A stretch of 22,956 nucleotides of DNA from a virus: positions 1 to 22,956 of IMG/VR virus record IMGVR_UViG_3300027851_000133. The stretch is one strand, 5' to 3'. The first letter of the stretch is position 1. Every line of letters starts with the position of its first letter. The notes under the pieces are model-generated. The model ran no database searches. It worked only from the letters and a program-made list of their open reading frames with translations, and was not told the DNA's origin. This document shows, one piece after another, positions 346 to 22,956 of the stretch. The translations under genes were made by a program, and so were the position numbers.

Positions 346-747
346 ATGAGAAACCCACTTCTCAAACATGCGCAGATTATTCGTCTTGGGCGACTTCTCG
401 ACATGATGTACAAACCATCTGAGATTGCTGAAGAGATTGGTGTGGCAGTTGACACGATTTACCGGTCCTATCTTCCGGCCGGACTCCCCTTCATTCGCGA
501 AAATAATTCCATTTGGATCCACGGGCGAACCTTCGCCAAATGGGCAGAAGATTTAGCTGCATCACAGCGACGCCAGCGCCCGGGCCTGCCAGCTGGGCAT
601 GGCTATTGCATGAAGTGCAATAAGCCTGTCCCAATGAATAACCCCATCGTCGTATTTACCAATCGATACATTCAAATCAACCAATCCCCCTGCCCGACCT
701 GTGGATGCAGTGTCAACCGCTTTAGCAAGAAAGAGGTGTCATCATGA
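346..747 (+). CDS. Small HTH/zinc-ribbon protein, integrase partner (candidate excisionase or regulator)
   Basis: This 133-aa protein has a good ribosome site (AGGAG, 6 nt before ATG). Residues about 10-70 look like a helix-turn-helix domain with recognition-helix candidates in PSEIAEEIGVAVDTIYRSYL (24-43), followed by a segment typical of small winged-helix or MerR/Xis-like DNA-binding proteins. The C-terminal part carries Cys88-x2-Cys91 and Cys116-x2-Cys119, with an extra Cys121, which should form a zinc ribbon. Its stop overlaps the integrase start by 4 nt (ATGA), so the two are translationally coupled. By position it may be a recombination directionality factor or a regulator of the integrase. 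That role is inferred; I do not recognise a named family. Confidence 0.8.
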   Translation: MRNPLLKHAQIIRLGRLLDMMYKPSEIAEEIGVAVDTIYRSYLPAGLPFIRENNSIWIHGRTFAKWAEDLAASQRRQRPGLPAGHGYCMKCNKPVPMNNPIVVFTNRYIQINQSPCPTCGCSVNRFSKKEVSS

Positions 748-1793
748 TCAACCGTCAGAACTGGCTGGATGTCCGTGCCTACCTCACCCATCTTGATAAG
801 CGCCTTGGTCGTGATCCGAAGACTATTGCAAAGTATTGGAATTACCTTCGCCATCTTATTGAGTGGGCAGATGGCACCCCATTACCACATGCTCATCGCA
901 TCATCGATCCTGTCTTCCCTCTCTATCTCACTACCGCTCGTAATGACAGCCGCAGCACTCCACTATCCTATTCAACATCATACAAAGCCTTGATGACCAC
1001 CCGCCTCTTTTACGAGTACGCCAGCAAAGTCTGGGCGTCCCGTTATAAACACGTATCCGGCTTATGGTTGGAGACTCTGGTGCCACGCACCAAGCCAGAC
1101 CCAACCTCTGAAGATCTCCGTTTCTACACCCTCGATGAACTCAGAGCCATTGCCACTGTTTCTACAGCAACGCTCCGGGAAGAACGGGCTCAGGCAGGGG
1201 CATGTATGCTCTTCCTGTCCGGAATGCGTCCCGACTCTCTCGCCTCCATCCCGCGTCAGTGCGTGGATCTTCTCAATCGCCGCCTTATGCAAAAACCCAA
1301 CATGGGCATTCGTACAAAAAACAAGAAGTCGGCGATTACCTACCTGCTTGATATTCCTGAACTCATGGCAGTTGTTCAACGTTGGGACGCCAAGGTCAGT
1401 CACATGGCGCCAAACGCCCTATGGTATAGCACCCTGCAAGCTGGTGGTGAGCACCTGCGCGAAACCTCACATGCAATCGAGAAACGTGTCTCAGAAGTCG
1501 GCGAGGATATCCGGCAAATCTGCGCACGTGCTGGTGTCGAATATAAATCCCCTCATAAGTTCCGTTATGGTCACATTGTTTATGCTCGAAGCCTTGCCAG
1601 AACTGTCGAGGAAGCCAAGGCTGTCAGTCAGAATGTGCTGCACTCCACGATGATCACAACAGACAAAATATATGCCAACCTCACCACCAATCAGGTGCAG
1701 AATGTGATTCTCAACCTTGGAACCCAAACAAAAAAAATCGATCAAGCAGAGGTTCTCCGCCTGATCGAAATGCTCAAAGATCAGCTCACTTGA
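744..1793 (+). CDS. int: Tyrosine recombinase (prophage integrase)
   Basis: This 349-aa protein should catalyse site-specific recombination between attP and the tRNA-Pro attB, and excision with a directionality factor. The N-terminal part (about 1-115) resembles a SAM-like core-binding domain. The catalytic domain shows the family residues: Arg162 in LSGMRPDSL, a Lys in the TKNKKS beta-turn (192-195), His271 and Arg274 in HKFRYGH, His300 in NVLHST and the nucleophile Tyr310 in DKIYANL. All are present, so it should be active. The start overlaps the upstream HTH gene (ATGA) and has a GAGG-type ribosome site. Its last 8 bases overlap the convergent end of the phage late operon, and no terminator separates them. 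Confidence 0.95.
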   Translation: MINRQNWLDVRAYLTHLDKRLGRDPKTIAKYWNYLRHLIEWADGTPLPHAHRIIDPVFPLYLTTARNDSRSTPLSYSTSYKALMTTRLFYEYASKVWASRYKHVSGLWLETLVPRTKPDPTSEDLRFYTLDELRAIATVSTATLREERAQAGACMLFLSGMRPDSLASIPRQCVDLLNRRLMQKPNMGIRTKNKKSAITYLLDIPELMAVVQRWDAKVSHMAPNALWYSTLQAGGEHLRETSHAIEKRVSEVGEDIRQICARAGVEYKSPHKFRYGHIVYARSLARTVEEAKAVSQNVLHSTMITTDKIYANLTTNQVQNVILNLGTQTKKIDQAEVLRLIEMLKDQLT

Positions 1794-13144: not shown

Positions 13145-14404
13145 CTAAGAAGGCAGGGTGACTTTCAAGACTGTCATCGCATCCGCGTCAAATGCGGAGA
13201 TATCCATACGGGCAATGCCTCGCACTTCAGTGCTGTTCGAACGCCAGGCTTTCCCACCAACGTTGGTTGACGAAAATTCAAAACCGGCGCGTTTGAACAA
13301 GCTCGCATAGGATTTCCCGTCTCCAATGGCAATGCGGGCGCGGCTGGGACCGGTCATGTTCGCCCAATGTGCGTCGCTCAGATAAACCACCGGACGACCT
13401 TTAACGCGGAAGGCGGTAGCATTGCTTGGGTCGGGTTGCAAGAGCGGGCGCCCTGTTCCATCTTCCAATTGATCAAGCAGGTCTAAGCCACTCTGATTGG
13501 TGAAGAGCGCCGCAGTTGCACTGAAAGCGGGGTCAAGTGTCTTGTTGAGGACGGTCTTAATCGCGCTGAGCAAGGTCTTGTAATCGCTCACAGCCGTGCC
13601 ACTGATGGCGTTGATCAACGCAAGAATCACGCTGTTGTGGGTGAGGACGAGTTTCTTTGAGAACCATCCGCCCAGATAGTTCATGATGTTGACGGGAGTG
13701 TCCTGCATGAGCGTATTACTCACAGGCAGGAAGTCGCGGTACTCGTCGAGCGAGTAATCGATCTTATTGAACTTGGGCTGTTCGCCTTCATCCGTGCGCT
13801 CTTCCATCTCGTTGGTGGATTTGGTGAGCGGCAAAGCGGCTGCAAACTGCTCGATCACACGCCAGCCCGTCAGGGTGTTGACGGTTTCGACATTGACATA
13901 ACTGCCAAGGTCAATGTATTGGCGCGCCAGTTCAATGATACGGTTATCAAAATCCACTGGGTTGAGGAAGCCGCCATCTTCACCGGCAGGCGAGCCACCT
14001 GTTTCAGTCAAGGCGTTGACAAGCAAGGGAAACTGTTCCGCGCTATGCTGTCCGCTCTTTACGGACTTTGGCGTGACACCATTGCGGAAGGCGTTCATCC
14101 ACTGCTGCATATATTGAGGCGACTCACGCAGGTCTTTGACTTCCTGCGACTCAGGTTGCCCCATCGGAGGTTGGAAGCGTTGGGCGGGATCCTGTTGTCC
14201 GTCGGTGGTTGCCAACAGGGACAGGTACATTTTGTTCGTATCAGCGTATTCCTTGTTCGCCGCATCCAGTTGCGGTTGCAAGGCAATTGCCTCTTCGAAC
14301 TTGTCAGCGTCGTTCAGTGCCACGATCTGTGAGGCGATTCTGTTTCGCTCGGCGTTCGCGGCAACGACCTTGTCGTACATAGGCTTGAGATTCAGTTGGG
14401 TCAT
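13145..14404 (-). CDS. Major capsid protein, HK97 fold
   Basis: This 419-aa protein has AAGGAG 5 nt before ATG. Residues 1-105 form a coiled-coil delta/scaffold region, likely removed by the upstream protease. Residues from about 130 onward match HK97-fold capsids: ALTETGGSPAGEDGGFLNP at the N-arm, an E-loop, a spine region (WFSKKLVLTHNSVILALI), TLDPAFSATAALFTNQSGL and the C-terminal GDGKSYASLFKRAGFEF. It builds the icosahedral shell. The placement after portal and protease is the HK97 order. No Lys-Asn cross-link can be judged by eye. Confidence 0.92.
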   Translation of the reverse strand: MTQLNLKPMYDKVVAANAERNRIASQIVALNDADKFEEAIALQPQLDAANKEYADTNKMYLSLLATTDGQQDPAQRFQPPMGQPESQEVKDLRESPQYMQQWMNAFRNGVTPKSVKSGQHSAEQFPLLVNALTETGGSPAGEDGGFLNPVDFDNRIIELARQYIDLGSYVNVETVNTLTGWRVIEQFAAALPLTKSTNEMEERTDEGEQPKFNKIDYSLDEYRDFLPVSNTLMQDTPVNIMNYLGGWFSKKLVLTHNSVILALINAISGTAVSDYKTLLSAIKTVLNKTLDPAFSATAALFTNQSGLDLLDQLEDGTGRPLLQPDPSNATAFRVKGRPVVYLSDAHWANMTGPSRARIAIGDGKSYASLFKRAGFEFSSTNVGGKAWRSNSTEVRGIARMDISAFDADAMTVLKVTLPS

Positions 14405-14406
14405 TT

Positions 14407-15189
14407 TTACTCCTTGGTCAAATATGTTTTTGCATGAGCCGCCAAGCGTCGCGCTTGTTCCGCTCGTTCATTCACCGCGTCAGACTGCAAGCTGGACTCC
14501 AACAGTTCACGCGGGACATTCACATAGTTTTGGAGCGCATTCACAAAGGCAGTGCGTGCAGCATTCTGTGTCTGCCCGCCTTGGATGACTTCATTTGCAA
14601 AGCCATACTCAACTGCCTCCTGGGCGCTCATCCAGGTTTCATCCTTCATCATTCGACTGAGCTTATCCACGCTCAGCCCGGTTTTGGAAGCGTAGGTATC
14701 CACAATTCCGGCTTTAATAGATGTCAGTTGATCGTGTAGTTGCTTCAGTGTCTCGACATCCAAGGCTGCCAAAAAGACGATTACCGCCGGGTCATGAATC
14801 ATCATATAAGCGGTATCCATGATCTTGATTGTCTTGCCTGCCATTGCCACTATGACCGCAGCGCTGGCAGCCATGCCGTCAATCCGCACAGTTACATCAC
14901 CGGGATAGTCAGTAATAATGGAACGAATCACAGAAGCAGCAATCACATCGCCACCAGGTGAATTTAAACGGATGATGATGGGTCCACCATTGCCTGCCTT
15001 GTACAGGTCGTCTTTGAATTTCTTCGGTGTGATTTCATCTTCGAGCCAGGAGTATTCCGAGATGAAGCCGTAGAATTCAAGTTCTGGAGCACTGCCTGTC
15101 TCAGCAGCATTACGGATCTTCCAAAATGGTTCATAGGGTTTACTGTTTCCATCGAAACAGCGGATGGGTTGAAAGGGTTGGTTAGGCAT
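14407..15189 (-). CDS. ClpP-type prohead (capsid maturation) protease
   Basis: This 260-aa serine protease shows NSPGGD (76-81), the nucleophile Ser109 in GMAASAA and His132 in MMIHDP. The acidic triad residue is probably near 183-184 in KDETWMSAQEAVEYG, a stretch that resembles ClpP. It should trim the capsid delta domain during maturation. The start overlaps the portal stop by 8 nt and has AAGGAG 6 nt upstream. The N-terminal 60 residues are an extension typical of phage ClpP-like proteases. Confidence 0.9.
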   Translation of the reverse strand: MPNQPFQPIRCFDGNSKPYEPFWKIRNAAETGSAPELEFYGFISEYSWLEDEITPKKFKDDLYKAGNGGPIIIRLNSPGGDVIAASVIRSIITDYPGDVTVRIDGMAASAAVIVAMAGKTIKIMDTAYMMIHDPAVIVFLAALDVETLKQLHDQLTSIKAGIVDTYASKTGLSVDKLSRMMKDETWMSAQEAVEYGFANEVIQGGQTQNAARTAFVNALQNYVNVPRELLESSLQSDAVNERAEQARRLAAHAKTYLTKE

Positions 15190-16411
15190 TAGAAGCTCCT
15201 TGCTGGGTATTGCTCATGGGTTGTAGGTTCGAAGCCATCCACAATTCATCTGCGAGAGGATTGGAGTCTGCAGATCGATCCTCGATCTGGCGTGCTTCGT
15301 TGGGACGTAATCGTCCATTCTGGATGGCGCCGTTGAGATATTCGCCACGAGATTTGGCGTCGGTGCGGAATAGAGCACTGCGTTCAAAGCGCAGATAGGT
15401 GTACCCTTGCTCGTATAGTGGGATCCATTTCAACCCACCTGCCTGTTCAATCTGTACAAGATATGGGTCGAGTGTAGAGGAGAGATAGTCGAGGTTGTTC
15501 TGCTCATTGGATTGGTAGGACTGCTTGCCAGTATTAAGTTTGTAAGATGGCAGACCGAAGTAATTCATGACGGCAATATCATTGTCCTGAATCAGTTCCA
15601 GGAACTGGACATCTTTAGGTTGCAGCGTCACTGGTTCGAATTTAGATACTTTATTATCGAGAATGGCGATTCGTCCGCTATTAGTCTCCCCGCTCATAAC
15701 CTCTTCGTACATGGAGCGAACTTTCTGTCGATGCTCTTTATCAGAATCGCCATCTAGCCACAAGATGCCCGCTGCACTTAATCCGTTTTTGAAGAGCGAG
15801 GATTGTGAGCCATAAGCTGCCAACTGCCGCCCAATGGTTTCTCTTGCGTATTGGATCACGCCGCGACCAACAAATCCACTTTCATCAGGATTGATCAAGA
15901 CATGCATGATTTCAACATCAGGGATATAGTCCCAGTGTTGGTTGTTGCCGAAGCGGGTGGCATACCACAGATTTCCATCCACATCGAACACAGGTGCAGT
16001 TTTGTTAGCAGGAAGTATGAATTGTTCACGTGGATATGCAGGAGGTGTCCACACGTAACCATTTCCCCACGCAACCAGCCATTGCATGAGTTGCTTCTTT
16101 AGCTGAAAAGGACTCCACCAGCGGTTTGGCTGTTTTTCGGTGATCCATGCAAGATTGCGTGCTAATGCATCCGGTCGCTGACGGTTGATTTCACCGCTTT
16201 GCTTACTGATGAAGACTTGCAGTGGAAGTTTTGCTACATCATCACTAAGAATGTTTAAGCACCGATATGCAGTCGCAACGTTCTTGGAGGTTTCTGCTGT
16301 GACGACGGGACCCGCCTTGGATTGTGTTCCCATCAGTTCTACAACTTGTGGCAGAGTTTGTTGCGTTGTTACAGCATTGGTAGGGCGATTTAACGCTTTG
16401 CTGAGGATCAT
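15182..16411 (-). CDS. Portal protein, HK97 gp3-like
   Basis: The start is set at the ATG at 16411, with AGGAG 6 nt upstream. A TTG at 16471 is in frame but would overlap the upstream membrane gene fully. The product is 409 aa: residues about 38-65 (TSKNVATAYRCLNILSDDVA), YARETIGRQLAAYGSQSSLFKNG with SAAGIL, a middle NYFGLPSYKLNTGK, and the C-terminal NGRLRPNEARQIEDR, all HK97-portal landmarks. It forms the dodecameric DNA gate at one vertex. Its ATG overlaps the stop of the 52-aa gene (ATGA). Confidence 0.9.
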   Translation of the reverse strand: MILSKALNRPTNAVTTQQTLPQVVELMGTQSKAGPVVTAETSKNVATAYRCLNILSDDVAKLPLQVFISKQSGEINRQRPDALARNLAWITEKQPNRWWSPFQLKKQLMQWLVAWGNGYVWTPPAYPREQFILPANKTAPVFDVDGNLWYATRFGNNQHWDYIPDVEIMHVLINPDESGFVGRGVIQYARETIGRQLAAYGSQSSLFKNGLSAAGILWLDGDSDKEHRQKVRSMYEEVMSGETNSGRIAILDNKVSKFEPVTLQPKDVQFLELIQDNDIAVMNYFGLPSYKLNTGKQSYQSNEQNNLDYLSSTLDPYLVQIEQAGGLKWIPLYEQGYTYLRFERSALFRTDAKSRGEYLNGAIQNGRLRPNEARQIEDRSADSNPLADELWMASNLQPMSNTQQGASNA

Positions 16412-16566
16412 GATTTGCTCCTCGCGATTAGAATCGCTGCGACCAAGCATTCCACACCACCAACGAACCAAGCGGCAATCGGCGAGAGTTTATAAGTCCC
16501 AATCAGGATTGCAATAAAACCGGCTACGAAAAGAATATCGTCAAAATAATTACGGAAATGTTTCAT
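16408..16566 (-). CDS. Tiny two-helix membrane protein, directly before portal
   Basis: The minus strand from the ATG at 16566 to the TGA at 16408 gives 52 aa. It has two hydrophobic segments, about 11-24 (ILFVAGFIAILIGT) and 29-48 (PIAAWFVGGVECLVAAILIA), and a basic end (RSKS). The start shares its A with the upstream stop (TAATG), and the stop overlaps the portal ATG (ATGA). Such precise two-sided coupling supports a real gene. It could be a holin-like or other membrane component, but no family is recognised and no endolysin is near. Confidence 0.7.
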   Translation of the reverse strand: MKHFRNYFDDILFVAGFIAILIGTYKLSPIAAWFVGGVECLVAAILIARSKS

Positions 16567-17491: not shown

Positions 17492-19210
17492 CTACATACC
17501 CCAATCATCTTTGAGGATATCGTCGAGGTTCGTTACTGGATTACGCAGTGCAAGGTCGAGCGCCATGATGAGCGCAACCATGCCGTCAATCTTATCGCGA
17601 CTCTTTTCCTTATCTGGCTTCATATTCCCTGCAGGGTCCAAACGTGCGATGAGATTATCCGCCATCCATGTGAGCACTGGGTGGTTCCCGTGGCGGATCT
17701 TGCCACTGAGGATGAGGCGTTCGAGTTCTTTCATAGGGGGGTTCATGCTGGCATAGCCCTGACCGAATTCCACCATCTTCATGCCCATCTTTTCCAATGT
17801 TTGGGTCACACTGGACGCGCCCCATCGATCAAAGGCTGCTTGCTTGATCGTGAAGTTTCTGGCGTCTTTCTCGAGTTGGGCATAAATAAAATCATGGTCG
17901 ATATGGTTTCCGGGTGTGGCTTCGATATAGCCATCCTTCACCCATTGTTTGATCATCCTAGCGTCATCCGGAGAACGATAGTTCGGCTCCACGTCGAGCG
18001 TATCTTCGGGTATCCAGAAGCGGCAGACAATATCAAAGTATTCATCTGGTGCAGGGAACGCCATCACGAAGGCGGTGATATCCGAGACACTCGAAAGGTC
18101 GAGCCCGCCAAATGTTGTGCGCTTCTTCAGTTTCTCCGGCTTTTCGAGTGCAGGGATGGGATCTGCCTTGCCTGCTTCGCGCCACTTCTCCATGTTCGTC
18201 CACTTGACGGTGCCAGTCACCCATACGTTGAGCTCGCGGCGCAGGAAGTTATTGAGCGCAGCCGCCATCTGTGAAGCACGCTTGGCTTTCATGCGCAGAT
18301 CTTCGAGGGATTTGGATACTCCGAGGTTTGGGTTTGCTTTGATCCAGACTTCTTCATCTTGCCAGTCATCGTCTTCATCAAGGGTATAGATCAACCCGAA
18401 CCAAGTATCGTCGATGTAGCTGCCATCTTTCCAGCCTTCGAGCACTTTACGGGTGTATTCATGCTTTTCAAAGCAGACGCTTTTGCGGTTATCACCTGCA
18501 GTGGTGATCATGATGATCATTGGCTGTTCGCGGGCGCCGGTGGCAGTTTCGAGAAGTTCGAGCGTTTCGCGGTTCTTGTGAGCGTGAAGTTCATCGACGA
18601 TGGCGCCATGAACATTCAAACCATCCATGCTATCCGAATCACCACCCAGTGGTTCATACTTACTGGATGTGTCTTCGAGACTGAGATTGTCTTTATAGAT
18701 TTTGATGTATTTCTTCAGGGTCTTGTTCTTGCGCACCATGCGGATGGCTTCCTGATGCACAATGCGTGCCTGGTCGCGCTTGGTTGCAGCACTGTAAACC
18801 TCTGCACCTGGCTCCCCATCGGCAAAGCCTAAATACAAACCATCACTAGCCCCGTCTGTAGATTTCCCGTTCTTGCGTGCCACTTCTGTATATGACGATC
18901 TGAAGCGGCGCGTGCCATCCTCGCGCATCCAGCCATACATGCACCAGGTGCGGAACTGTTGCCACGGTTCAAGGATAAGATTCTCCCCTGCCCATTTTCC
19001 CTTGGAGTGTTTGAGCATCCCCTTAAAGCGCAGAACAAGTTCAGCAGCTTCTCTGTCAAAGTAAAGCCCACGTTCATGTCCGTGCTCCAAATCATGAAAA
19101 TGACGCTCACAGGCAAGCCTCACCCATTTGCAGGCTACGATCTTGCCATCGATGACATCCTGTGCGTATTGTTCGGCAGGGTGTAGATGTACCTTCCTGG
19201 TTCTTGCCAT
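17492..19210 (-). CDS. terL: Terminase large subunit (TerL)
   Basis: This 572-aa DNA-packaging motor has an ATPase domain with Walker A ARKNGKST (111-118), Walker B AIVDE (203-207) and the coupling motif TTAGD (236-240). A nuclease domain follows with acidic candidates Asp371 in GGLDLS, Asp461 in AFDRWG and Asp542 in DKIDGM. The N-terminal 80 residues include the LEPWQ adenine-binding-like motif (80-84). It docks on the portal, cuts the concatemer and pumps DNA into the prohead. It starts 1 nt after the TerS2 stop, a normal TerS-TerL pair. All motifs appear intact. Confidence 0.95.
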   Translation of the reverse strand: MARTRKVHLHPAEQYAQDVIDGKIVACKWVRLACERHFHDLEHGHERGLYFDREAAELVLRFKGMLKHSKGKWAGENLILEPWQQFRTWCMYGWMREDGTRRFRSSYTEVARKNGKSTDGASDGLYLGFADGEPGAEVYSAATKRDQARIVHQEAIRMVRKNKTLKKYIKIYKDNLSLEDTSSKYEPLGGDSDSMDGLNVHGAIVDELHAHKNRETLELLETATGAREQPMIIMITTAGDNRKSVCFEKHEYTRKVLEGWKDGSYIDDTWFGLIYTLDEDDDWQDEEVWIKANPNLGVSKSLEDLRMKAKRASQMAAALNNFLRRELNVWVTGTVKWTNMEKWREAGKADPIPALEKPEKLKKRTTFGGLDLSSVSDITAFVMAFPAPDEYFDIVCRFWIPEDTLDVEPNYRSPDDARMIKQWVKDGYIEATPGNHIDHDFIYAQLEKDARNFTIKQAAFDRWGASSVTQTLEKMGMKMVEFGQGYASMNPPMKELERLILSGKIRHGNHPVLTWMADNLIARLDPAGNMKPDKEKSRDKIDGMVALIMALDLALRNPVTNLDDILKDDWGM

Positions 19211-19211
19211 C

Positions 19212-19694
19212 TCACTGTTTGGATCCTTTTTCGCGTTTTCGTGTGAGAATGGATTTCATCTCGTCGTCTTCGGTTGGCATCTCCACCTTTAGCCGTGATC
19301 TGGCAGATGGTGTCATGCCAAACTCGGAAGAGATACGTAGCATGCGGTCCATTGCACTGGTCTTGATACCCATCCACGGGTTTTGGTAAGCATTACCTTT
19401 GTCTGAGAATAAAACTTCTCCCTCTTTTTCGACCTCACCACACGCTTTCACATAATCACCCCATGCCTGGCAATAGGCAACGAGCACAGCACGGTCTATA
19501 GCTGTGATAATGCGTAACGTTTTAAGCTCCGCTGTGATGCGATGCCACTCTTCGAGAGCCGGTCCATCCAGATGATCAGGTGGCGGTGGAATGACAACAT
19601 TCGGCTTCGGTTCTTTGTCATTGACTTTCCGCTTGCCCGGATTACCTTCAAGCTTTTTCTTTTCAGTTGGTTTTGGTTTTCTGCCCCGTGTCAC
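19212..19694 (-). CDS. terS: Terminase small subunit, P27 family (copy 2)
   Basis: This 160-aa protein starts at GTG, overlapping the upstream stop (GTGA), with GGAGG 4 nt upstream. It shows the P27 signature GRKPKPTEKKKLEGNPGKR at the N-terminus, then EPKPNVVIPPPPDHL, a helical core (EEWHRITAELKTL, AIDRAVLVAYCQAW) and the C-terminal EFGMTPSARSRLK. TerS recognises the pac/cos site and feeds DNA to TerL. It lies immediately before terL, so it is the more likely working partner. A second, diverged copy is at 22450-22926. Confidence 0.9.
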   Translation of the reverse strand: MTRGRKPKPTEKKKLEGNPGKRKVNDKEPKPNVVIPPPPDHLDGPALEEWHRITAELKTLRIITAIDRAVLVAYCQAWGDYVKACGEVEKEGEVLFSDKGNAYQNPWMGIKTSAMDRMLRISSEFGMTPSARSRLKVEMPTEDDEMKSILTRKREKGSKQ

Positions 19695-21112
19695 TGTTCC
19701 TCCAATACTGGGTGCTGACCGGTCATGACGTGCCAGCGCTCCAGCCCCACAGCAATATATTTCGGGTCGTTATCCATTGCATGACAGACTCTGCCGGTGC
19801 GTTCACAGGCTGCGAGTGTGGTGCCTGACCCTGAGAAAAGATCAAGGACGATATCCCCAGGCTGGGATGAGTTGAGAATCGCACGCTCAACGAGTTCGAG
19901 CGGTTTCATCATGGGATGCTCTTCGCTCTTGCGCGGTCGGTCGATGAACCACGTGTCTGATTGCTTGCGATCGGGGACCTCGCAGACTCTGGGAGCGTCA
20001 CTCTTCCAGCCGTACCAGATCGGTTCGTACTGGGCGTGATAATCCTTGCGCGATAAGACCATTTGGTCTTTGACCCATACAATGGTGCTCGACCAGTGAA
20101 AGCCGATCTTGCGCAGTTCGCTATCGATGACGGGCCATTCTTCGCCACCCATCACTGCATAAATGACAGCACCCGGTACCGTGGCACGCCATAACTGGGC
20201 GACGAACAACTCCACGAAGATGATGAACTGCTCGCCAAGGTTGTCGTTGTTGATCTGTCTCTTCTTGAAAGTGGGATGCTCGCTGCCACCATAGTCCACA
20301 TTCCACGGTGCGTCGGTCCAGACCAGCTTCGCCAATTCACCAGCCATAAGCCGCTCGACGTCGTTACGTTGCGTGGAATCGCCGCACATGAGGCGATGCT
20401 TGCCGAGTTGATAGACCTGCCCGGGCTGCACCTGCCACTTGGCTTGTAGCTCTTCGGCTTTGTCGGGTTGCCCTCCAGGGTCCGCTACGGTTGCCTGGGG
20501 TGCCTCTGTTGCTGTAGAAACGCCCACCAGGTCGTCCAAGTCTGCGGGGGTGAAACCAGTGAAGAGGTCGCCGGTGGTCTGGGTGATTTCACGCAGCACG
20601 TCCACATCCCATTCACTTAGGTCGCCCAGGCGGTTATCCGCGATGCCATAACCTGCTGCGGTCGCAGGGTCATCCTCGACGAAGACCACAGCAATGTGAC
20701 TCCAGCCCAGTTCCTTGGCAGCACGATACGTACCATTGCCCGCTTCGATCTTGTTGTTCTGTAGGCGGTTGACCACGATGGGCTTGCGCTGTCCGTAGGC
20801 TTGAAGCGATGATTTAATCCCTGCCACGTCGTGACCAATGCGGGCATTGGCGGGATCTTCATGCAGGGTTTGTATCCGTACAGTCAATGGTTGTAGTGAT
20901 TCGACAATATAAGAAAGGTCTGGGTTAGAAATCTTTTTAAGCATTTCACCCGGCGTTTTTTCTCCGGGTTCTTTCAAAAGTTCATAACCTGTTTTACATA
21001 ATGGGCACTTGATTACGCTTCCCTTGCGCGGATTTGTTACCCATTCATCGGCTACGGTTGTCTCACATGAAGGGCAAGTAAATATCGTGCCTTTTGCTTC
21101 TTCTTGTCCCAT
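19691..21112 (-). CDS. ParB-domain DNA methyltransferase B (zinc ribbon; DAPW motif)
   Basis: This 473-aa protein has three parts. Residues 10-42 are a zinc ribbon (Cys13-x2-Cys16, Cys36-x2-Cys39) absent from its neighbour. Residues 68-190 are a ParB/Srx-like domain with IEAGNGTYRAAKELGW (122-137), which usually binds DNA or a nucleotide. Residues 228-465 are the AdoMet-dependent methyltransferase: CGDST (243-247), catalytic motif IV DAPW (267-270), HPMMKPLEL (399-407) and AdoMet motif FSGSGTT (426-432). The DxPx-type motif IV and the order catalytic-then-AdoMet indicate a beta-class N6-adenine methyltransferase. It starts 3 nt after methyltransferase A and overlaps TerS2. The target site is unknown, and no restriction nuclease is seen nearby. 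Confidence 0.9.
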   Translation of the reverse strand: MGQEEAKGTIFTCPSCETTVADEWVTNPRKGSVIKCPLCKTGYELLKEPGEKTPGEMLKKISNPDLSYIVESLQPLTVRIQTLHEDPANARIGHDVAGIKSSLQAYGQRKPIVVNRLQNNKIEAGNGTYRAAKELGWSHIAVVFVEDDPATAAGYGIADNRLGDLSEWDVDVLREITQTTGDLFTGFTPADLDDLVGVSTATEAPQATVADPGGQPDKAEELQAKWQVQPGQVYQLGKHRLMCGDSTQRNDVERLMAGELAKLVWTDAPWNVDYGGSEHPTFKKRQINNDNLGEQFIIFVELFVAQLWRATVPGAVIYAVMGGEEWPVIDSELRKIGFHWSSTIVWVKDQMVLSRKDYHAQYEPIWYGWKSDAPRVCEVPDRKQSDTWFIDRPRKSEEHPMMKPLELVERAILNSSQPGDIVLDLFSGSGTTLAACERTGRVCHAMDNDPKYIAVGLERWHVMTGQHPVLEEQ

Positions 21113-21115
21113 TAT

Positions 21116-22453
21116 CTATATCCTCTCTGGCATGTTGCCAGTCATCACATGCCAGCGTTCCAAGCTGGCTGCCAAGTATGCGGGGTCGATCTCGTTCGCA
21201 ATGCACTCACGGTTCAGCACTTCGCAAGCGATCAGGGTCGTTCCCGATCCATTGAACGGCTCGAAGACTGTCTCCCCTGGCTTGGTGTAGAGCAGGATGT
21301 GCCGTGCAGGAATCTCCAAGGGGAATGCAGCGATGTGACCATTTGCACCGGCAGTGCCTTTGATGTCATCCCAGTACGAACGCAGCGCCCATTTCTGACC
21401 GGTCTTTTCCTGTCCGCGCTGCTTGCCATAGCGGCTGTAAAAGACTTCGAGCAGGTTCACATCCTGCTCGTTGAGCACGTCATCAAACTGGATGGGCTCA
21501 CCTTCATCGTGTTCAAACGTGCCGAAGAACTCACTATGCTGGTCGATCAGATCTGTCTTCGGCGACACGGATGCAAGCTGCCCTTCCTTCAGCCAGTGAC
21601 GCACGTGGCGCAAGTTCCAGCCGAGCGGGTAGAGTGCGTTCATCCACTTATCAATAAGCAACAGCACCTGCCGCTTTTTCTTTTTTTCGAATGCCGTTGT
21701 GAAGCCGGTACTGGTATTGATCACGATGCGCGACTCGTCCACGCGGGTGACCTTTGCCATGATGGCTGCCACTCGTGCGATGAACTCATCGATCTCAGCT
21801 TCGCTCTTCTCACGCTCGTATTCCTTGCCCACCCAATAAGGTGGCGACGTGACAGTCAGTGCTGCAGCTCCGACCCAGCCGAGGCGTTCGATATCCAGTT
21901 GGGTGGAATCTCCACAGTAGAGGATGTGCCTTCCAACTGCCCAAGTCTGCCCGGGTGCGGTCCCCCACTTTTCTTGCAGCTCTTTCAGCTTGTTATCGTC
22001 TTCATCTTGCGGACCCGGATCCACCAGCAAACCACCACCGCGTTCGCCAAGCACGTCGCGGATCTCACCCTCTGTAAAGCCGGTAAACAAATCGTCGATA
22101 GTTGGCATCAAAGCGCCGAGCGCATCCAAGTCCCACTGGCTGAGATCACTCAGGCGGTTGTCAGCAATTCCAAACGCCGCTGCTGTTGCTGGATCATCTT
22201 CGACGAAGACCACGGCAATATGACTCCAGCCAAGTTTCTTTGCGGCCTGCCATGTGCCGTTACCTGCTTCGATCTTGCCGTTCTGCAATCGGTTCGCGAT
22301 GATAGGCTTGCGCTGACCGTAAGCCTTGAGTGATGAGGCAATGCGATCAAGCGCGTGACCTGTCCGCGCATTGGCAGGGTCCACGTGCAGTTCGTCTATC
22401 GGAACCGCTAGGACTCTCAGCCCCTCAGCAATGTAGTTGAGTTCATCTGTCAT
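21116..22453 (-). CDS. ParB-domain DNA methyltransferase A (TSPPY motif)
   Basis: This 445-aa protein is similar in design to methyltransferase B but lacks the zinc ribbon. Residues 7-126 are the ParB-like domain (IEAGNGTWQAAKKLGW, 61-76), about two-thirds identical to that of B by eye. Residues 168-440 are the methyltransferase: CGDST (180-184), motif IV TSPPY (202-206), HIAAFPLEIP (373-382) and AdoMet motif FNGSGTT (400-406). S/TPPY is common in N4-cytosine enzymes, though some N6-adenine enzymes also have it. It overlaps TerS1 by 4 nt (ATGA) and ends 3 nt before B, so the two are made together. A protective, packaging-related or epigenetic role is inferred. Confidence 0.9.
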   Translation of the reverse strand: MTDELNYIAEGLRVLAVPIDELHVDPANARTGHALDRIASSLKAYGQRKPIIANRLQNGKIEAGNGTWQAAKKLGWSHIAVVFVEDDPATAAAFGIADNRLSDLSQWDLDALGALMPTIDDLFTGFTEGEIRDVLGERGGGLLVDPGPQDEDDNKLKELQEKWGTAPGQTWAVGRHILYCGDSTQLDIERLGWVGAAALTVTSPPYWVGKEYEREKSEAEIDEFIARVAAIMAKVTRVDESRIVINTSTGFTTAFEKKKKRQVLLLIDKWMNALYPLGWNLRHVRHWLKEGQLASVSPKTDLIDQHSEFFGTFEHDEGEPIQFDDVLNEQDVNLLEVFYSRYGKQRGQEKTGQKWALRSYWDDIKGTAGANGHIAAFPLEIPARHILLYTKPGETVFEPFNGSGTTLIACEVLNRECIANEIDPAYLAASLERWHVMTGNMPERI

Positions 22454-22926
22454 CTTGATACCGTCACTCGCTGTCCAAACAGCATTCTTTCAAGTTCTTG
22501 ATCTGGGTCGAGCATATCCGTTTTGACACGTGATCTGCTCGATGGTGTCATGCCGAATTCCGCGCCCAGTTTGTTGAGTTGGTCAAGTGCCCTGTTTGCA
22601 ATTGAGAGGTAGGGATTTTGGATGATGTTCCCTGCCGCTGTTTTGATGATCTCGCCTTTCTCGCGAACCATCCTCTCTGCCTTGACCCATCGCACGTATA
22701 TCGTGCAATACATTGCGAGTGCATCCTTATCAATGGTGGTGACCAGTCCTAGTGGATGCAGCTCGCGAACCACCGATTTCCATTTTTCTTTTTCAGCGTC
22801 GCTCAAGTGCTCCGGTGGTTTTGGCATGACGACTCTTGGCTTTGGTTCGGCGTGATTGATAGCACGCTTGCCAGGATTGCCAGCCAGCAACTTGAGCGCT
22901 GTTGGTTTTGGTTTTCGTCCTTGCAT
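22450..22926 (-). CDS. terS: Terminase small subunit, P27 family (copy 1)
   Basis: This 158-aa protein has the same layout as the copy at 19212-19694: GRKPKPTALKLLAGNPGKR, EPKPRVVMPKPPEHL, a helical core and EFGMTPSSRSRVK. The sequences are clearly related but well diverged, so the duplication is not recent. An AGGCGG ribosome site lies 4 nt before ATG. It is followed (ATGA) by methyltransferase A rather than by TerL. It is intact and could be a second DNA-recognition subunit, or a former TerS kept for another task. The upstream flank (22927-22956) is too short to judge for a promoter. Confidence 0.85.
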   Translation of the reverse strand: MQGRKPKPTALKLLAGNPGKRAINHAEPKPRVVMPKPPEHLSDAEKEKWKSVVRELHPLGLVTTIDKDALAMYCTIYVRWVKAERMVREKGEIIKTAAGNIIQNPYLSIANRALDQLNKLGAEFGMTPSSRSRVKTDMLDPDQELERMLFGQRVTVSR

Positions 22927-22956
22927 TCATCCGCCTATACCCCCCCTACCTAATTT

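Follow-up and report, generated by a model that had tools for sequence, protein, structure and literature searches.

One small terminase (TerS) is taken as a requirement of tailed phages. The viral contig analyzed here (IMG/VR record IMGVR_UViG_3300027851_000133), whose full stretch of 22,956 nucleotides we refer to as the window, carries two, TerSa and TerSb, with two methyltransferases, MTa and MTb, between them and one large terminase (TerL) behind them. We asked how this arrangement arose, whether both small terminases are maintained, and what a second one placed beside methyltransferases might contribute to packaging.

A five-gene packaging block and its recurrence

The five-gene arrangement described in the initial annotation was confirmed, with all five ORFs (5/5) found on the minus strand where it had placed them and with Pfam and PHROGs in agreement (Table 1). 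Both small terminases match PF05119 (Terminase_4) well above the curated cut-off of 24.7 (TerSa, E 4.4e-29, 101.2 bits; TerSb, E 1.3e-26, 93.3 bits), and across the block PHROGs returned phrog_83 twice for TerS, phrog_498 twice for the methyltransferases (MTb, E 1e-108) and phrog_9 for TerL (E 3e-168). Identity within the pairs is 45% for TerSa and TerSb and 42% for MTa and MTb. A PICI-like satellite TerS, which would come without its own TerL and capsid, was ruled out by the presence of TerL, portal, protease, and capsid genes in the window.

Table 1. Packaging genes and adjoining features of the window
Feature	Position	Strand	Remarks
TerSa, P27-type terminase small subunit	22450..22926	-	first gene after cos, accessory copy; PF05119, phrog_83
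MTa, ParB_N-N6_N4 methyltransferase	21116..22453	-	4-nt overlap with TerSa; PF01555, TSPPY motif IV
MTb, ParB_N-N6_N4 methyltransferase	19691..21112	-	3-nt gap after MTa; PF01555, phrog_498, motif IV DAPW
TerSb, P27-type terminase small subunit	19212..19694	-	GTG start; 4-nt overlap with MTb; PF05119
TerL, terminase large subunit (ATPase and nuclease domains)	17492..19210	-	1-nt gap after TerSb; PF03354 and PF20441
Portal, ClpP-type head protease, HK97-fold capsid	13145..16471	-	downstream of packaging block; PF04860, PF00574, PF05065
Right-hand part of putative cos/TerS-binding element, AAATTAGGTAGGGGGGG...	22927..22956	-	cut off by contig end; matches CCGCGAAATTAGGNAGGGGGG

The order TerSa-(MTa)-MTb-TerSb-TerL, for which the initial annotation had proposed to search relatives, is kept in ~29 other records (26 viral contigs and 3 genome contigs), including a 414-kb bacterial contig in which only MTa is missing. 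Because of this recurrence, the arrangement is far beyond chance, and both chance and assembly artefact were ruled out as its source; the gene order and its conservation are well supported. The hosts of this phage family are probably Chloroflexota bacteria. In agreement with the earlier statement that phages normally carry one TerS, two recognizable P27 copies were found in 0 of the 736 annotated phages that carry this type of TerS. A blastn search of the block against annotated phages returned nothing beyond a short terminase match, and no published two-TerS phage was found in the open-access literature, subscription papers lying outside that search. ParB-methyltransferases beside a single P27 TerS occur in many other phages (33 loci); a second TerS ahead of the methyltransferases, followed by TerL, was found only in this phage clade.

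Both methyltransferases have the features of ParB-N6/N4 enzymes, namely the N6_N4 domain (PF01555; MTa, E 1.8e-26; MTb, E 2e-25), motif IV, FxGxG, and a ParB-like N terminus, the last with ParB_N matches below the cut-off (E 3e-4 in MTa and 1e-4 in MTb). ParB_N is the N-terminal ParB/Srx-like domain and not the helix-turn-helix DNA-binding domain of ParB, so the match does not bear out the ParB-like DNA binding first proposed for these enzymes. The accompanying claim that both retain all motifs holds for MTa, whose motif IV, TSPPY, is present in all homologues found, but not quite for MTb: the window and its closest kin (L001, L002, and L003) have an altered motif IV, DAPW, in place of the DPPW of nearly all other relatives. 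The DAPW form may indicate lowered MTb activity in the window clade. The window copy of MTb also has an N-terminal Cys-rich extension.

Descent, selection, and loss of the second small terminase

In the TerS tree, TerSa and TerSb fall into two separate clades of old origin (support 100/99 and 100/95, respectively), and a recent duplication was rejected for that reason. An AU test did not rule out a single clade for the two copies (p 0.725), which fits either an older duplication or an acquisition; in one tree, TerSa joins the single TerS of a sister TerL clade. Both copies are under purifying selection, with dN/dS of 0.04 to 0.13 for TerSa and 0.04 to 0.19 over the two, and relaxed selection on one of them, which the initial annotation had named as counterevidence to its claim, was not seen. 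TerSa ORFs are full-length across the two-TerS loci, and mean identity over 22 loci is 0.80 for TerSa, 0.81 for MTa, 0.75 for TerL, and 0.64 for TerSb. These observations bear on the possibility that TerSa is functionless, a remnant, together with MTa, of a second terminase module that joined the existing one. The grouping with the sister-clade TerS is what such a history would leave, as are the TerL-nuclease-like ORFs between MTa and MTb in two relatives (L014 and L021), which, read by eye, lack the third catalytic acidic residue; however, the low dN/dS and full-length ORFs imply ongoing selection on TerSa, the AU test keeps common ancestry with TerSb possible, and we regard a relic as highly improbable.

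Retention is nevertheless not universal. The two old clades and the low dN/dS bear out that two copies are maintained, but the claim that selection keeps both small terminases is not supported in its original form, given the absence of TerSa from 8 close relatives (L031, L198, L205, L207, L208, L209, L109/L285, and L111), corresponding to 7 changes on the TerL tree. Absence of one copy from close relatives had been named at the outset as evidence against retention of both, and here it falls on one side only: all of these relatives have TerSb and TerL, none has an intact MTb, and loss of TerSb, which adjoins TerL, was never seen. Since a broken TerSa start remains in five of them (L031, L198, L208, L285, and L205), the TerSa-less state reflects deletion or replacement, and in L205 and L285 unrelated DNA occupies the cassette position. 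TerSa is thus a conserved but optional add-on, and relatives without the cassette keep an intact packaging set.

MTb is absent every time TerSa is absent, and TerSa was seen only together with MTb. All supported independent pairs (5/5) agree in this joint absence (sign test p 0.0625), five pairs being too few for significance in such a test. MTa, in contrast, was lost alone, with 6 changes on the TerL tree, and is missing from 6 two-TerS loci. Joint loss of TerSa and MTb alongside separate loss of MTa is consistent with a link between TerSa and MTb, although, given that the three genes are adjacent, one deletion or replacement can take them all without any functional link. Gene-distance correlations yielded no strong partner for TerSa (Spearman 0.06 against MTb).

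It is possible, if rather unlikely, that the methyltransferases are ordinary antirestriction enzymes at an insertion-prone spot and that TerSa is co-inherited with them, any role it has being independent of methylation. In lactococcal 936 phages, the orphan methyltransferases located between TerS and TerL give protection from restriction and occupy an insertion hotspot (PMC4190342); the unrelated DNA in L205 and L285 lies at the cassette position, and having two motif IV types would be useful if several restriction enzymes had to be countered. Such an account would not lead one to expect that a passenger TerSa is about as conserved as MTa and more so than TerL, nor that MTb and TerSa are never seen apart while MTa comes and goes.

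A single cos site

Nineteen contigs share one terminal base, located 15 nt before CCGCGAAA(T) and just upstream of TerSa, marking this position as cos. The last 30 nt of the window match the conserved cos-right element of relatives, CCGCGAAATTAGGNAGGGGGG, and by homology the cos cut would lie ~20 nt past the window end. A whole-genome contig of 37,448 bases starts with cos-TerSa and finishes with an HNH gene, ~10 nt being absent between its ends; an HNH gene lies beside cos and TerS in the relatives that reach that far, and the window stops before that point. We infer that the overhang is 3′ and that TerS binds at the cos element. Since the element is fixed at +16 (CCGCGAAA), genome ends of P27 phages can be read from metagenome contigs.

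Two diverged small terminases with one TerL are what a phage with two packaging specificities would need, each TerS recognizing its own site, as the initial annotation had considered. Each of seven long contigs, searched by the sequence of the element, has one cos-type element, and the contigs of two lineages lacking TerSa, L109 and L111, terminate exactly where those of TerSa-bearing lineages do. Together these findings argue against two packaging sites and for TerSb, TerL, and HNH being enough for packaging; two separate cos sites were judged unlikely, and we consider two specificities very unlikely. The cos-right element is common to many P27 phages, and a comparison on a small sample found no cassette-specific sequence in cos, the element being the same in phages that lack the cassette, so nothing there points to a methylation signal tied to it.

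TerSa might also act on packaging independently of methylation, either in mixed rings with TerSb or by blocking satellites, superinfecting phages, or other rivals that use this shared cos element. In Escherichia coli satellites (PICI), Rpp enters a complex with the phage TerS, whose specificity it changes (PMC6739421). TerSa and TerSb have fixed residue differences (e.g., K48/E and D68/A) on a common fold core, and their predicted models contain the same helices, with HK97 TerS as the top but weak match for each (E 0.35 and 0.43). Modulation of this kind leaves the joint absence of TerSa with MTb unexplained, and we think it distinctly unlikely.

Proposed methylation-coupled packaging control and comparison with known systems

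The explanation we tentatively prefer, while holding it at somewhat below even chances, is that TerSa-MTa-MTb forms an accessory cassette at cos that couples methylation to packaging control. In this phage group, HNH-cos-TerSb-TerL would be the basic cos-packaging set, HK97-like in type, with TerSb probably the working small terminase, and TerSa-(MTa)-MTb a replaceable cassette placed between cos and TerSb. TerSa, as a second, slowly evolving P27 TerS, may recognize, either in a ring of its own or in one shared with TerSb, the one TerS-binding element that lies immediately to the right of the cos cut. It would work with MTb, and with MTa where present, so that packaging is controlled or marked through methylation of the phage DNA. 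Two ideas of the initial annotation, methylation marking the packaging site and a hetero-oligomeric TerS, may thus hold. In a more specific, and unlikely, version, the ParB-methyltransferases would set the methylation state of cos and each TerS would read a different state, so that initiation and termination, or old and new DNA, fall to different small terminases serving a single TerL. The long retention of two small terminases in one lineage, with methyltransferases between them and one cos, makes methylation control of cos packaging directly testable and also allows the modularity of TerS to be tested, with natural TerSa-less relatives as ready-made controls.

HK97-type cos packaging uses HNH gp74, TerS gp1, and TerL gp2 (PMC11331095, PMC9410871); its TerS-binding site spans +15 to +29 relative to the cut, which leaves a 10-nt 3′ overhang (PMC11331095). 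As in HK97, HNH adjoins cos in this phage group, the TerS gene begins ~50 nt inside the end, a putative TerS-binding element lies at ~+15 to +30, and the overhang would be ~10 nt. The TerS fold may also be related. Unlike in HK97, there are two TerS and two methyltransferases, and at the sequence level the TerS belong to different families: HK97 gp1 gave no match in a search against the P27 profile, and neither TerSa nor a 20-sequence profile retrieved any sequence from the PDB. Closer in layout are phages such as L284, in which a ParB-methyltransferase lies beside P27 TerS and TerL as it does here, with the same cos-right element where the contig reaches it; these have one TerS rather than two, as does Mycobacterium prophiT49-1, in which a methylase adjoins the terminase. 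The lactococcal 936 phages likewise have orphan methyltransferases inserted among packaging genes but differ in having one TerS, scattered insertions, and a demonstrated antirestriction role (PMC4190342).

In phage P1, adenine methylation of pac is cited as regulating pac cleavage (Sternberg and Coulby 1990, cited in PMC4190342). P1 is a pac phage, whereas the present system has a cos site, an additional TerS, and two enzymes fused to ParB-like domains; the likeness would lie only in the proposed logic, by which methylation governs cutting of the packaging site. Similarly, Rpp is a satellite protein that acts on a lambda-type TerS, whereas here the P27 TerS are in the phage itself; by analogy, the specificity of a TerS could be changed by a second DNA-binding partner that resembles it.

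Gene order and distribution of the block

Five genes on the minus strand of the window read, in order, TerSa, MTa, MTb, TerSb and TerL, where TerSa and TerSb are P27 small terminases and MTa and MTb are ParB-type N6/N4 methyltransferases. Neighboring genes overlap by 4 nt at the first and third junctions and are 3 nt and 1 nt apart at the second and fourth, so that the positions, order and tight coupling described in the initial annotation were borne out, and Pfam and PHROGs both agreed with the gene identities. This 22,956-base IMG/VR fragment ends 30 bases upstream of TerSa. It carries portal, protease, capsid and tail genes plus a weak integrase match, and so is a piece of a tailed phage, probably a temperate one. 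Motif IV is TSPPY in all MTa homologues, while in MTb it is DPPW in nearly all homologues and DAPW in the window clade; these differing types suggest, without proving, that the putative enzymes have different target bases. Homologues of MTb start about 60 residues later than the window protein.

The same gene order recurs in relatives. A TerSa-based search recovered 25 viral loci, 23 of which carry TerSa-(MTa)-MTb-TerSb (brackets mark a gene that is sometimes absent), plus TerL where long enough, and later scans added L117, L201 and L302; a few of the two-TerS records are near-duplicates. Three genome contigs also have the arrangement: L028 (Anaerolineales), L029 (Chloroflexi, 414 kb long and lacking MTa) and L030, from a Bacteroidetes bin. 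Since its scores equal those of viral contig L019, L030 is possibly mis-binned, and Chloroflexota are therefore the probable hosts. A tblastn search with TerSa across 50,697 phage records, with matches at 736 places in 736 records, found no phage with two recognizable TerS copies. Across wide scans, loci in which a ParB-methyltransferase adjoins TerL and a lone P27 TerS were common (33 loci); two TerS around methyltransferases turned up in this clade alone, counting L022 and L302 as distant members. In three other Chloroflexota genome loci (L174, L175 and L176), two P27 TerS lie side by side ahead of a ParB-methyltransferase. No TerL is nearby within the stretch read, replication-type genes lie near L175 and L176, and the three loci resemble phage satellites.

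History, selection and loss of the two small terminases

In a P27 protein tree that left out a few very long-branched rows, TerSa and TerSb each formed a clade of its own (100/99 and 100/95, respectively), apart from the remaining P27 proteins (100/88). With those rows included, TerSa was still a single clade and only the TerSb of the distant L022 fell outside its group. Comparing the two TerS by tree, as the initial annotation had proposed, thus places their split before the divergence of these phages. A larger quick tree grouped TerSa with the single TerS of a sister TerL clade (98), but in a constrained test a single clade of TerSa plus TerSb was not rejected (p 0.725); the second copy may stem either from a duplication or from acquisition. 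In AlphaFold models (mean pLDDT 72 for TerSa and 76 for TerSb) the main helices come in the same order, and the top PDB match for each was HK97 TerS, weakly (E 0.35 and 0.43). Because each clade has its own fixed residue at positions such as K48/E, D68/A and Y106/W, the proteins are not interchangeable at the level of sequence.

Pairwise dN/dS was ~0.03 to 0.19 for both TerS, the methyltransferases and TerL where synonymous sites were unsaturated. Mean identity was higher for TerSa (0.80) than for TerL (0.75) and TerSb (0.64), an order to be read with caution, as most loci were found with a TerSa query. The proposal that selection keeps both TerS holds insofar as dN/dS is low in both copies, but TerSa is gone from eight close relatives, the kind of absence that had been named as evidence against it. 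A scan anchored on TerL rather than TerS, together with L031 and a reading of contig starts, identified these relatives (L031, L198, L205, L207, L208, L209, L109, which is the L285 contig, and L111), and their single TerS is of the TerSb type every time. On the TerL tree, TerSa absence amounts to 7 changes inside the two-TerS clade. Five of these absences are losses rather than the ancestral state, because the start of TerSa is still present; loss in L207, L209 and L111 is read from the tree.

Intact MTb is absent from all TerSa-less relatives, and among TerSa loci reaching far enough none lacked MTb or TerSb. Since TerSa and MTb are absent together while L004, L007, L011, L012, L018 and L029 lack only the intervening MTa (6 changes), a functional link between TerSa and MTb is suggested; one deletion of neighboring genes would remove both too. 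Supported independent pairs agreed on joint absence in 5/5 cases, a number too small to reach significance.

Two further observations concern the same region. The replacement DNA looks similar in L205 and L285, two separate lineages, and carries reverse-strand ORFs. The nuclease-like ORFs of L014 and L021 appear to retain two catalytic acids and are probably inactive, because the third is Gly or His; they may be what is left of a second terminase module.

Features of the window and of related loci
Locus	Position	Strand	Feature
Window	744-1793	plus	Weak integrase match (phrog_1, E 3e-10)
Window	19691-21112	minus	MTb; N-terminal extension with two CxxC pairs, zinc-ribbon-like
L014	3670-4251		TerL-nuclease-like ORF (PF20441) between MTa and MTb
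L021	7473-8273		TerL-nuclease-like ORF between MTa and MTb (PF20441 score just under cut-off)
L205	1-1600		TerSa-methyltransferase region swapped for other DNA
L285	first 1400 bases	reverse	TerSa-methyltransferase region swapped for other DNA
L031			TerSa remnant, nine codons
L198			TerSa remnant, about six codons
L208			TerSa remnant, 29 codons, fused to MTb end
L285			TerSa remnant, broken start, then unrelated DNA
L205			TerSa remnant, broken start, then unrelated DNA

The cos region and the possible role of the cassette

Where relatives extend further upstream, TerSa is preceded by a conserved non-coding stretch, and that in turn by an HNH gene (PF01844). A pattern scan for CCGCGAAATTAGGNAGGGGGG turned up contigs whose end lies exactly 15 nt before it. 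Over the whole set of fetched loci, with each contig counted a single time, the first base of 19 contigs lies exactly 15 nt ahead of CCGCGAAA, against only three that begin at a different offset nearby. The 37,448-base L117 contig starts at that base and ends just past HNH, and about 10 nt of uncut copies are missing between its ends. In HK97 the TerS-binding site spans +15 to +29 and the 3' overhang is 10 nt (PMC11331095; a sister paper, PMC9410871, gives both 10 and 12), while the TerS gene begins at nt 50, a layout that matches the cos region of these phages. From the common contig ends, the ~10-nt gap and this HK97-like layout, cos is placed between HNH and TerSa; the +16 element is a putative TerS-binding element, and the overhang is inferred to be 3', as in HK97.

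Many distantly related P27 phages are among the 19 contigs ending 15 nt before CCGCGAAA(T) (e.g., L212, L214, L217, L219, L233, L284, L316 and L353), and CCGCGAAA(T) is apparently a general cos-right element. In the sister TerL clade (L218, L223 and L228), about three CCGCG(A/T)AAT...GGGG copies, not one, lie upstream of TerS.

Two packaging specificities, one of the explanations first offered for the second TerS, are unlikely: each long contig has one such element (7/7), and the TerSa-less L109 and L111 end at the same base as the TerSa-bearing L006, L007 and L117. Insofar as contig ends are virion ends, this shared base indicates that TerSa is dispensable for cutting cos, with TerSb, TerL and HNH sufficing. 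The reading with most support treats TerSa-(MTa)-MTb as an accessory cassette that lies between cos and the complete HNH-cos-TerSb-TerL packaging set.

As to mechanism, two rivals are serious. MTa and MTb may be ordinary anti-restriction enzymes to which TerSa is loosely linked, a rather doubtful option that has precedent in PMC4190342. Less probable still, TerSa may be a methylation-independent modulator or interference protein, for which Rpp is a precedent (PMC6739421). We tentatively favor a mechanism that would couple methylation with packaging at the common cos element, on the model of phage P1, a precedent cited in PMC4190342.
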